From a virus, in the IMG/VR virus record IMGVR_UViG_3300045973_000445, positions 1 through 64,000 of that record: 64,000 nucleotides of DNA; one strand, written 5' to 3'. Positions 2,636-6,083 of this stretch are shown here, piece by piece. Numbering within the stretch: position 1 is the stretch's first letter; each line of letters starts with the position of its first letter. The position numbers and the translations under genes are program-made. Below the pieces are notes generated by a model. That model was not told where the DNA came from, searched no databases, and saw nothing but the letters and a program-made list of their open reading frames with translations.

Positions 2636-2683
2636 GCCAGATTGGGATATGGGCTCTGCCCAGAGTCCTAGTCTGGCTTTTTT
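2636..2683 (+). terminator. Rho-independent terminator after the first gene group
   Basis: GCCAGA (2636-2641) pairs with TCTGGC (2672-2677). The stem can extend inward through G-U pairs to about 13 bp and is capped by an inner GGGC-TCT-GCCC hairpin (2651-2661). A run of six T follows directly. It lies 5 bases after the stop of the preceding gene. Confidence 0.85.
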
Positions 2684-2702: not shown

Positions 2703-2713
2703 TTTGTATAATT
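2703..2713 (+). promoter_or_regulatory. TTTGTATAAT-type putative promoter
   Basis: TTTGTATAATT lies 20 bases after the terminator hairpin. The same motif recurs before six other + strand genes and one - strand gene in this window. Here it is about 185 bases upstream of the HNH start codon, so the transcript would have a long leader with the structure described at 2741-2848. Confidence 0.6.
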
Positions 2714-2740
2714 CCTTAGTTTATAAATTTAAAGTTTATG

Positions 2741-2848
2741 TTTGTGGTGTACTTATCTCAGAGCGAATATGAAAAATAAAAATAACGTCTTTTTGACATA
2801 TTGCCCTTACCGGCATAAATTACCACAAAAACAGTACAGGTCGCTCTG
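2741..2848 (+). ncRNA. Candidate structured RNA leader with pseudoknot-type pairing
   Basis: Complementary segments are exact. TTTGTGGT (2741-2748) pairs with ACCACAAA (2822-2829). GTACT (2749-2753) pairs with AGTAC (2833-2837). CAGAGCGA (2759-2766) pairs with TCGCTCTG (2841-2848). Inside are AATATG (2766-2771) with CATATT (2797-2802) and TGCC/GGCA (2802-2815). The first and third long pairings interleave rather than nest, as in a pseudoknot. No coding frame explains it. It may be an ncRNA, a cis-regulatory leader of the HNH gene, or a ribozyme-like element; no family was recognised. Confidence 0.4.
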
Positions 2849-2898
2849 GGGTTTGCGTGGTTTTTTATTGCTTGGTAGGGGCTTTATCTTATATAATT

Positions 2899-3495
2899 AT
2901 GGAAAGATCTAATTCAATTAAAAAAAGTGAATGCCCACATGTACATAAATATAATTCAATATATGATGTATGGAGATTTGGACTATGTGTAGATTGTGAA
3001 ATATCAGATAACTGCCTATCTAAAGAAAACAAACCTAAAGATTCAAATTACTCTGAACTACTAAAGCATCCAGATTGGCAAAGAAAAAGACTTGAAATTT
3101 TACAAAGAGATGATTTTACTTGTCAAATATGCCATGATAAAGAAACTACACTCCACGTCCATCACAAAAAATATAAAGCAAACAGGAAGCCGTGGGAGTA
3201 TGAAAATGATGATTTAACTACAGTTTGTAAATACTGCCATGCAACATTAGAAGTCACAAAAGATAAATACCATCAATATAAAATAAATAAAATAGAAGCC
3301 CTTCTGTTTAATATAATAAGTGAGGAGAATGCTTCACTTAGAGTATATAAAATCACACAATCAACTAATGTAAATATAATACCCGAATATGATCAATATA
3401 TATCAATGATACTTACTAATAACACACATAATACAAGTCAAGTATTTGCCATAGATAAGGAAGATACATCAAAATTAATTGATTTTATAAAATAG
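2899..3495 (+). CDS. HNH endonuclease, free-standing homing type
   Basis: The product is about 198 residues when started at the ATG at 2899; an in-frame ATG at 2857 lies in the structured leader. The central HNH (His-Me finger) domain shows RDDFTCQIC, then LHVHHKKY, then DLTTVCKYCHATLE: two CxxC zinc pairs, the HH catalytic pair and the closing Cys/His. An N-terminal Cys cluster (CVDCEISDNC) may be a second metal site. The C-terminal third is unrecognised. Codons are more A/T-rich than in the primase gene, as expected for a mobile endonuclease. It stands between a terminator and the replication-initiation gene, with its own promoter-like motif and a structured leader. Confidence 0.85.
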   Translation: MERSNSIKKSECPHVHKYNSIYDVWRFGLCVDCEISDNCLSKENKPKDSNYSELLKHPDWQRKRLEILQRDDFTCQICHDKETTLHVHHKKYKANRKPWEYENDDLTTVCKYCHATLEVTKDKYHQYKINKIEALLFNIISEENASLRVYKITQSTNVNIIPEYDQYISMILTNNTHNTSQVFAIDKEDTSKLIDFIK

Positions 3496-3502
3496 AATCA
3501 AA

Positions 3503-4222
3503 ATGGCTAAAAGATTTACAGACACTAATAAGTATAAGAAGCCCTTTATAAGGGGCTTACAAGGGGCTTATAAGCTCCTTTGGGATTATCTGTACCATGA
3601 CTGCGATCATGCCGGTATATGGATTGTTGATTTTGAAGTAGCTCAATTATACTTAGGTAAGGATATGCCTGTAAATAAAACAGATGCTTTAAAGTACTTT
3701 AATACAGATGAACAGAGAATTATCGAAGTTGATAATGGTCAGAGATGGTTTATTCCTTCATTTATAGATATACAGTATGGGGAATTAAGTGAAGTTAATA
3801 GAGCTCATAATTCAGTGCTTAATATTTTAAAAACGTATAATCTTCTGGAAAAAATAAAAAAAGAAAACAAGCCCCTTCCAAGCCCCTTAAAAGGGGCTAA
3901 GGATAAGGATAAGGATAAGGACATGGTTAAGGACATGGAAATACAGCCTGAATTTTATGACACATTTTTAAGATGGCTACATTATAAAAGAAACAGAAGA
4001 GAATCTTATAAAGATAAAGATTCTACAACTACTGCATTTAGAAAACTAATGAGATTATCTGAAAGAGATGCTAATATAGCAAAAGATATAATAGAAGATG
4101 CTATTAGCAATAATTATTCTGGATTCTTTGAATTAAAACAAAAAAAGAAAATAGTGCATGGGAATACTACATTTGAAGATATTAAAAAAACAGCTGAAAA
4201 ATATGGAAACAATAACAACTGA
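3503..4222 (+). CDS. Replication initiation/replisome organizer-like protein
   Basis: The 239-residue protein has an N-terminal block (KPFIRGLQGAYKLLWDYLYHDCDHAGIW...) of the kind seen at the start of phage replisome-organizer proteins with a winged-helix fold. A low-complexity linker of KD repeats follows (near residues 133-142). The C-terminal domain (about 150-225) contains YDTFLRWLHYKRNRRESYK and FRKLMRLS, which resembles helicase-loader modules. It probably recognises the origin or loads the DnaB-type helicase encoded 300 bases downstream. No iteron array is visible within the gene, although it contains repeated AAGGGGCTTA-like words near 3550-3570 and 3880-3900. Family assignment is by resemblance, not by a diagnostic motif. 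Confidence 0.65.
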   Translation: MAKRFTDTNKYKKPFIRGLQGAYKLLWDYLYHDCDHAGIWIVDFEVAQLYLGKDMPVNKTDALKYFNTDEQRIIEVDNGQRWFIPSFIDIQYGELSEVNRAHNSVLNILKTYNLLEKIKKENKPLPSPLKGAKDKDKDKDMVKDMEIQPEFYDTFLRWLHYKRNRRESYKDKDSTTTAFRKLMRLSERDANIAKDIIEDAISNNYSGFFELKQKKKIVHGNTTFEDIKKTAEKYGNNNN

Positions 4223-4514: not shown

Positions 4515-6083
4515 ATGTCAAAACTAAATGATGAGAAAGATAGATCAGAGATATTAATTATAACTGGTCTAATAACCTCGACTGAGTATCTACAGCAAAT
4601 TCAAAATAGCTGGAATATTCAATATATAGCTTCTCCACCAGCTAAACGCATAGCTGGATGGATATGGGCTTATTTTGATCATTATAATAAAGCACCAGGA
4701 AATATAGAAATTGAAAATATCTTTTATACACGAAGTAAAAATTTATCGGAAGCAGATGCTAAAGATATAGAGGATATACTTAATGAGATCAGTAAAAAAT
4801 ATGAAGATTTAAATTCATTTAATATTCAGTATGCTGTAGATGAAACTCAGAAATATTTTCAGGAGCGTAATTTATATTTACTTTTAAATAATGGACAAGG
4901 GCATCTTCATAAAGGCAATATAGCAGAAGCTGAAAAATTAATTCTTGATTACAAACCAATAGTCAATGCATCAGAGTCAGATTTGGATTTGAGTAGTGAT
5001 GTTTCACTGGACAGAGTAGAAAAGGCATTTAATATAACCAACGTTCCTATTTTGACCTACCCAAAGCAACTGGGAGCATTTTGGAACTCCCAGCTTGTCA
5101 AGGGGGGACTGGTGGCTATTATGGCGAGCGAAAAGAGGGGAAAAACGTTTTTGCTAATGGACATGGCCATCCGAGCTTGTAAGGGGGGGAAGAATGTTTG
5201 TTTTTTCCAAGCTGGGGATATGACGGAAGCACAGCAGATAAAAAGAATCTGTATCTACTTGGCAAAAAAGTCGGATCAGCAACGCTACTGTGGGGAGATG
5301 TGGGAACCTGTCCGAGACTGTATTTTAAATCAAATGGGTAATTGTAAATGTGAAGAGCAGACCAGCGAAGGAGGGGTTTTTAAAGGGGAACAGAGAGAAT
5401 TCTTTAAACAGGAGGTTTCTATCGAGGACTTGATTGAAGCCTATGAAGCATCCCCTGATTATAAACCCTGCACGGCCTGCGATGAATATGACAACAAAGC
5501 ACTGGGCGCTGTTTGGATTCAAAAGGTTGATGTAGGCAATGTTCCGCTGGAAGCGGAGGAGGCTAAGAAAGTTCTATCTGATTTTTTTATAAAGCACAAA
5601 CGACATTTCAAACTCTCCAGCCACGCCAATGGGACTTTGTCCGTTAAGCAGATCCGAGCCATGTTATCTGTTTGGGAAAAGCAGGATGATTGGATACCTG
5701 ATTTGATTGTCATCGACTACGCAGACCTGTTAGTGGGGGAGACTAAAGAATTCCGACATCTCCAAAATGAGATCTGGAAAGACCTCCGTAGGCTGTCACA
5801 GGAGAAGGGTCAGCCGTTGGTTATTACCGCTACTCAGGCAGATGCGAAAGCGTATGATGCTAACAAACTCAAGATGAGTAACTTCTCTGAGGACAAGAGG
5901 AAATATGCTCATGTGACCGCCTGCTACACACTTAATCAAGATCCAAAAGGACGAGAGAAGAGAATCGGATTACTTCGGATCGGAGAACTTCTGGTTCGTG
6001 AGGGGGACTTCAATGTTGGGAATGAAGTCACTGTTCTTCAGAATCTTCGCAGGGGACGTCCCTTCATATCAAGCTACTTCTAA
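4515..6083 (+). CDS. dnaB: Replicative DNA helicase, DnaB type
   Basis: The 522-residue RecA-fold hexameric helicase would unwind DNA at the fork. The N-terminal helical region (1-150) matches the position of the DnaB primase-binding domain. Walker A is degenerate, ASEKRGKTFLL (from about residue 204). Walker B is LIVIDYADLL, and a late arginine-rich segment (NLRRGRPF) fits the arginine-finger/loop region. A Cys-rich insertion between Walker A and B (CKCEEQ, then CTACDE) suggests an extra metal-binding knob that typical DnaB lacks. The C-terminus ends shortly after the RecA core. The bases change from A/T-rich to G-richer codons about 5040, where the core begins. Confidence 0.88.
   Translation: MSKLNDEKDRSEILIITGLITSTEYLQQIQNSWNIQYIASPPAKRIAGWIWAYFDHYNKAPGNIEIENIFYTRSKNLSEADAKDIEDILNEISKKYEDLNSFNIQYAVDETQKYFQERNLYLLLNNGQGHLHKGNIAEAEKLILDYKPIVNASESDLDLSSDVSLDRVEKAFNITNVPILTYPKQLGAFWNSQLVKGGLVAIMASEKRGKTFLLMDMAIRACKGGKNVCFFQAGDMTEAQQIKRICIYLAKKSDQQRYCGEMWEPVRDCILNQMGNCKCEEQTSEGGVFKGEQREFFKQEVSIEDLIEAYEASPDYKPCTACDEYDNKALGAVWIQKVDVGNVPLEAEEAKKVLSDFFIKHKRHFKLSSHANGTLSVKQIRAMLSVWEKQDDWIPDLIVIDYADLLVGETKEFRHLQNEIWKDLRRLSQEKGQPLVITATQADAKAYDANKLKMSNFSEDKRKYAHVTACYTLNQDPKGREKRIGLLRIGELLVREGDFNVGNEVTVLQNLRRGRPFISSYF

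Follow-up and report, generated by a model that had tools for sequence, protein, structure and literature searches.

In IncI-alpha/IncB plasmids (ColIb-P9 repZ), a loop-loop pseudoknot forms in the leader of the initiator mRNA, and the loop sequences set specificity. The rep attenuators of the pT181 and pIP501 type contain a terminator in the rep leader that controls initiator supply. The CI RNA immunity of phage P4 involves RNA-RNA pairing in an early leader, with termination controlling transcription of the replication genes. The phage leader analyzed here appears, by analogy, to be most like an attenuator. With repZ it shares the pairing of distant loops in the mRNA leader of a replication initiator; however, the knot of the plasmid acts on translation and works together with a leader peptide and an antisense RNA, whereas no conserved open reading frame (ORF) is found among the homologous leaders described below, and the second loop is located in a terminator-like hairpin. 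The pT181 and pIP501 systems differ in employing an antisense RNA encoded on the opposite strand; at this leader, no such RNA was found. The P4 CI RNA, likened to the leader by description, differs in being processed and in having target sites outside the terminator loop.

Initiator leaders that contain pseudoknots are known from I-complex plasmids (Asano and Mizobuchi 1998, as cited in PMC10286972). The putL and putR RNAs of phage HK022 resemble the leader in being phage RNAs near early promoters that form hairpins and target transcription (PMC9378689), but they are about 70 nt long, have a common sequence, and lack a terminator of their own, whereas the leader is variable in sequence, pairs through a loop, and carries a U-run. 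Membership in the put class was rejected on the basis of this description, given a leader of about 130 nt with a terminator-like hairpin. IsrK of the Salmonella prophage Gifsy-1 is, according to the abstract of PMC4825925, a phage leader with a short terminated form and a read-through mRNA; the phage promoter and the structured leader with a terminator are common to both, but IsrK serves a toxic antiterminator module, and that abstract describes no knot of the present kind at a replication operon. A literature search conducted largely outside subscription journals found no description of this leader.

The window is a stretch of 64,000 nt (positions 1-64,000) of an 86.9-kb virus contig, IMG/VR record IMGVR_UViG_3300045973_000445. 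A first-pass annotation of this stretch described, behind a terminator and a promoter-like motif, three complementary segment pairs in interleaved order (here A/A', B/B', and C/C') and considered them a pseudoknot-like leader of an HNH endonuclease gene. The observation is confirmed in part, and the interpretation is partly supported. The three complementary segments are present at exactly the coordinates that it listed, and so is the upstream terminator (Table 1). Positions 2737-2744 match TAnnTTTG, the Bacteroides -7 consensus (PMC4747536); this predicted box, identified by motif, is kept in the window and in the three close homologues of the leader (L217, L100, and L305) and is found at the same place before other leaders.

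Table 1. Features of the leader and its surroundings in the window, and C/C' hairpins in relatives of the window phage (L121 to L131)
Feature	Position	Strand	Sequence or description	Basis
Upstream terminator	2636-2683	+	Intrinsic terminator of the preceding transcription unit, outside the leader	Sequence, by eye (approximate limits); consensus scan, 2660-2676; hairpin recovered a second time
Promoter box	2737-2744	+	TATGTTTG, Bacteroidota-type -7 box (TAnnTTTG), overlaps A	Motif kept
A/A'	2741-2748 / 2822-2829	+	UUUGUGGU / ACCACAAA	Exact complement
B/B' as first listed	2749-2753 / 2833-2837	+	GUACU / AGUAC	Sequence
B	2749-2752	+	GUAC by the presumed 5' end, partner 2834-2837	4 bp, tentative
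B'	2834-2837	+	Partner of 2749-2752	Homologue alignment
C	2759-2766	+	CAGAGCGA, 5' strand of the pseudoknot helix	Covariation in four leaders
C'	2841-2848	+	UCGCUCUG, in the loop of the terminator-like hairpin, partner of C	Sequence, covariation
Flanks of C'	2837-2839 / 2846-2848	+	CAG / CUG
D	2803-2813	+	GCCCUUACCGG, 5' strand of the outer stem	Two double-sided pairs, 100% of cells paired
D'	2872-2882	+	UUGGUAGGGGC, 3' strand of the outer stem, ~16 nt upstream of the start codon
E	2823-2832	+	5' strand of the inner terminator-like stem (CCAC 2823-2826, AAAC 2829-2832)
E'	2851-2860	+	3' strand (GUUU 2851-2854, GUGG 2857-2860)
U-run	2861-2866	+	U6 directly behind E', intrinsic-terminator signature	Invariant in four leaders
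HNH endonuclease gene	2899-3495	+	198 aa, PF01844; judged an insertion	Pfam E = 3.9e-5
Replication-initiator-like gene	3503-4222	+	Presumed first original gene of the operon	No Pfam match
DnaB-like replicative helicase gene	4515-6083	+	PF03796, same operon	E = 2.4e-7
L121			GAACGG with GGUG[CCGUUC]CACC
L126			GGGGCAC with GUGCCCC; matching hairpin farther upstream, second hairpin between it and the gene
L128			Weak case
L129			CAUG[GAGACCGA]CAUG with GGAG[CGGUCUC]UCC
L130			CAUG[GAAGCAGA]CAUG with GGGG[CUGCUUC]CCC
L131			GUGU[AGUUGG]ACAC with GGUG[CCAACU]CACC

The predicted leader RNA is about 130 nt long. The window scored 62.5 with a descriptor combining C, D, and E, a value that exceeds those of all 200 dinucleotide shuffles (maximum 53). 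Ordinary minimum free energy folding was unremarkable (z = -1.05), as expected for a pseudoknot, and a strict terminator scan did not call the leader hairpin because the loop is too large for the scan. In the window and in L165, E' and D' are separated by the U-run, which is odd for a simple terminator. Searching Rfam 15 at the gathering threshold yielded no matches in the window and 20 related loci, and at E <= 10 nothing credible appeared near the leader or in L100, in agreement with the initial remark that no known family came to mind. The analysis identified no ligand, protein, or antisense partner of the leader.

A pattern built on stem C retrieved about 120 viral loci, among which L100 was the one true homologue (76% identity over 178 nt, E = 2e-26). 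A second pattern yielded L217 (85% DNA identity to the window), and a third, in which C was not used, yielded L305. Because the sequence of C or C' served to select L100 and L217, an unchanged C in these two leaders and the window is not evidence; L305 is independent, and its C/C' (CGGAGCUA/UAGCUCUG) differs by a double change from G-C to U-A. D was never used as a pair in any search, and D/D' reads GCCUUCACCGG/CCGGUGGAGGC in L100, compared with GCCCUUACCGG/UUGGUAGGGGC in the window. In E, CCAC/GUGG is replaced by GCAC/GUGC in L100 and L305. Across the four leaders, 100% of the C, D, and E cells are paired, with double-sided changes at four pairs (one in C, where likewise all cells are paired), compared with 35-50% in slid controls. 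Aligning homologous leaders, as the first-pass annotation had proposed, reveals compensating changes in C, D, and E, and its claim of a pseudoknotted, promoter-proximal structured RNA is borne out. The knotted fold, as predicted by sequence comparison, is well supported.

The individual pairings fared differently. Of the three described initially, C is upheld by covariation. The A-A' complement decays across the four leaders (8, 7, 6, and 4 of 8 pairs), and this pairing was rejected: A is promoter box, with a complement that is not conserved, and because it overlies the -7 box, it is probably largely untranscribed. B is small but kept, as GUAC/GUAC in the window, L217, and L305 and as GUAU/AUAC in L100. 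The longer pairing D had been overlooked. Of two nested hairpins also described, GUC..GAC is not conserved; UGCC/GGCA is, yet its strand also participates in the better-supported long-range D. The confident reach of a covariance model (R1) was the four close homologues only; following up its two weak matches (L149 and L165) by eye opened the way to the wider class described below.

The genes behind the leader differ among these loci. In L100, the leader is immediately followed by a homologue of the window initiator-like gene (tblastn E = 4e-11), with no HNH gene; in L217, the leader is followed by a gene for a 91-aa HNH protein of another kind and then by a gene closely homologous to the L100 initiator gene; and in L305, the leader precedes a 55-aa ORF and a DUF1376-like gene. 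Given these neighborhoods and that of the window, the replication operon is the constant partner and the HNH gene a variable passenger. The leader is part of the replication-initiator operon and not of the HNH gene, to which it had been assigned initially. It lies 5' of HNH genes in the window, L217, L165, L170, L180, L181, and others, and it occurs without HNH in L100, L305, L121, L126, L129-L131, and the L318 group. The HNH gene of the window sits between the leader and the initiator gene and was probably inserted there rather than lost elsewhere; phage nuclease genes are known at genetic-exchange boundaries (PMC10448857). The HNH genes of the window and L217 (562-837, minus strand) occupy the same leader-initiator junction and are unrelated; the stop codon of the L217 gene overlaps the initiator start (ATGA), and the gap in the window is 7 nt. 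Separately, 7 of the 19 sites in the window that resemble AAGGGGCTT, in both orientations, cluster in the initiator-like gene (3539-3580 and 3869-3899). These clusters are iteron-like and perhaps indicate that, as in lambda O, the initiator gene harbors the replication origin. A further such site overlaps D' (2876-2884).

Relatives of the window phage were found through the helicase, and none of them has an HNH gene at the syntenic position between leader and initiator. Relatives L121, L126, and L128-L131 carry a leader of the same layout just 5' of the initiator and DnaB genes, with different sequences (Table 1). A terminator-like hairpin with a U-run lies mostly 15-40 nt 5' of the initiator gene, and its apical loop (C') is complementary to a segment (C) downstream of the promoter, often as kissing loops (GAACGG/CCGUUC, GGGGCAC/GUGCCCC, GAGACCG/CGGUCUC, GGAAGCAG/CUGCUUCC, AGUUGG/CCAACU, and the weaker GGAUAC/GUAUCC). 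In related leaders, C too is located in a hairpin loop, which makes C-C' a kissing-loop contact there. The true assignment of loops to 5' regions had the top score among all 5040 assignments, a permutation value that is approximate because the hairpins were chosen by synteny with C visible. In L126 (5361-5494), two strong terminator-like hairpins are arranged in tandem 5' of the initiator gene; the loop of the first matches the 5' region, and that of the second does not. In L121 and L128-L131, GGGAGUA ... GAAACC or a near variant recurs inside the terminator-like hairpin on the inner side of the outer stem; it is kept though loops and stems differ and might be a binding motif or a tertiary contact.

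The survey was extended to two sets of loci. Among 80 loci encoding relatives of the window HNH protein, 51 have a terminator-like hairpin in the 110 nt preceding the HNH match. With hairpins chosen by strength alone, the loop in 9 of these 51 has an upstream complement that is significant (p < 0.05) relative to shuffles of the upstream sequence. Examples from the survey are L148 (11 bp), L180 and L181 (10 bp each), L165, and L167. In nearly every inspected case, the gene behind the HNH gene is initiator-like and belongs to one of several unrelated families (named by eye). The second set comprised 80 loci encoding DUF1376-like initiators, 73 of them without an adjacent HNH gene; the leader is present in many of these loci, not all, and many initiator loci show none. 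In an independent set of 18 distinct HNH-less leaders (the L318 group), C-C' is 99.2% paired, with double-sided changes at 5 of 7 pairs (33-43% paired in slid versions), and the terminator stem is 100% paired. In columns 58-79 of A9, the inter-hairpin linker GTGTTTAGTGGTTAAATAATA is nearly invariant in these 18 leaders, and the loops change. U-runs occur 3' of the hairpins in related leaders. At 55 non-redundant sites drawn from the two sets and lying upstream of HNH or initiator genes, the C-C' score is 20 or higher in 18%, compared with 2.8% for locus-swapped pairs (Mann-Whitney p = 0.0017 with hairpins chosen by strength alone). From these counts, the leader class is real but not universal.

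Searching named phages with the leader sequence gave no match, and searches with the HNH and initiator proteins gave few. In Acinetobacter phage Abp95 (L124, ~1995-2465), a relative of the HNH gene, unannotated in the GenBank record, precedes an annotated replication initiation protein gene, and no such leader was found 5' of this HNH gene; in Pan5, no gap separates the HNH gene from the gene before it. Pattern matches in GTDB contigs (84) included no blastn homologue of the leader and were judged to be chance, and inspection by eye showed no obvious leader at HNH matches in 248 Bacteroidota genomes. Chlorobiaceae phage CV-1-33 (L397, 744-895) has a candidate leader before a DUF1376-like gene, with GUAGCUG/CAGCUAC, a long hairpin, and a T-run.

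The reading that we favor, with a probability of about 0.6, is that the knotted structure is the untranslated leader RNA of an initiator/helicase operon, most likely a transcription attenuator, with HNH genes inserting behind it. The leader lies between a promoter predicted by motif and the first gene and contains a terminator-like hairpin with a U-run, in the window and in relatives. The TAnnTTTG promoter would start an RNA with C at the 5' end, followed by a linker and then by the terminator-like hairpin (D/E stems and U-run) with C' in its loop; C and C' pair into the pseudoknot, as covariation shows. RNA polymerase would either stop at the U-run or read through into the replication genes, as we infer from this anatomy, and the C-C' contact may tune the choice and limit the replication operon. 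In the kissing-loop members, the terminator stem does not exclude C-C', and because the two are compatible, the sign of the effect is not readable from sequence. HNH genes of the homing type, of at least two kinds, would have entered the gap between leader and initiator, thereafter being driven by the promoter of the leader.

Tentatively, the terminated leader could instead be a trans-acting small RNA, the loops of which pair with C or C' on nascent leaders from phages of its own type, providing replication copy-number control or superinfection immunity with a separate C/C' key for each phage type. In the L318 group, divergence per site is 0.324 for C and C' together and 0.090 for the remainder of the leader; between L330 and L336, only four leader columns differ, and a single swapped C-C' pair accounts for two of them. 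The loops of the relatives of the window phage are all different but self-matching, and IsrK is a terminated phage leader that acts in trans on its read-through form (abstract of PMC4825925). However, a purely internal helix changes by compensation too: the fast compensatory change of C/C' could reflect ordinary compensation or else selection for distinct keys, which would be a sign of action in trans. It is improbable that the leader is a put-like antitermination RNA, which in cis would bind RNA polymerase and render it resistant to downstream terminators. The promoter-proximal position before early or replication genes and the two hairpins recall HK022 put (PMC9378689), but besides the short, common sequence of put, the leader ends in a terminator-like hairpin and U-run, and its loop sequence is free to vary while pairing holds. 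Very little speaks for repeats that act as DNA, either as an inverted-repeat operator or as part of a replication origin bound by the initiator: the replication genes adjoin, C and C' are inverted repeats, and the initiator gene contains the iteron-like repeats, but G-U pairs are present in C, D, and the terminator stems, and this tolerance indicates RNA rather than DNA; in addition, U-runs lie at the ends of the stems, and the promoter never switches sides. Hardly tenable is the view that the RNA accompanies the HNH protein as its partner, whether as a ribozyme, an RNA antitoxin, or a guide scaffold: leaders do precede HNH genes, but the HNH-less leaders largely refute this, and two unrelated HNH families lie behind similar leaders.

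An HNH-linked guide or ribozyme was accordingly rejected as the main reading, and the ribozyme or guide-RNA scaffold suggested at first has no support; a terminator-containing attenuator fits better. No Rfam family of self-cleaving ribozymes matched. An omegaRNA/HEARO scaffold was rejected given that only PF01844 HNH was found, with no IscB/IsrB-type linkage, and that HNH-less leaders exist. A type III toxin-antitoxin RNA was discarded because, in the sequence read, the leader is single copy and lacks tandem repeats, and because it precedes an HNH or initiator gene. A leader peptide starting at ATG 2769 (LTYC..RHKL in the window and L100) was rejected as well, its frame being broken by 1-nt indels between the window and L217.

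Many unrelated phages share this layout although their sequences are quite different, and it matches no catalogued RNA family. Searches of the Rfam type would miss such a regulatory RNA, in which fold and position are kept but sequence is not. A broader speculation, which we regard as unlikely, is a widespread, hypervariable class of phage RNAs heading the replication operons, with its own kissing-loop key for each type, conferring trans-acting incompatibility or superinfection immunity, with the junction behind it a recurrent landing site of HNH genes. If this were true, replication would be switched only by a matching phage, and the class would be invisible to sequence and covariance searches. 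The fast-changing loop pair makes phage-specific RNA control open to a simple reporter assay. HNH homing genes repeatedly pick the leader-initiator junction, and the leader may offer a direct handle on replication timing in many uncultured phages, whose promoters point largely to Bacteroidota.
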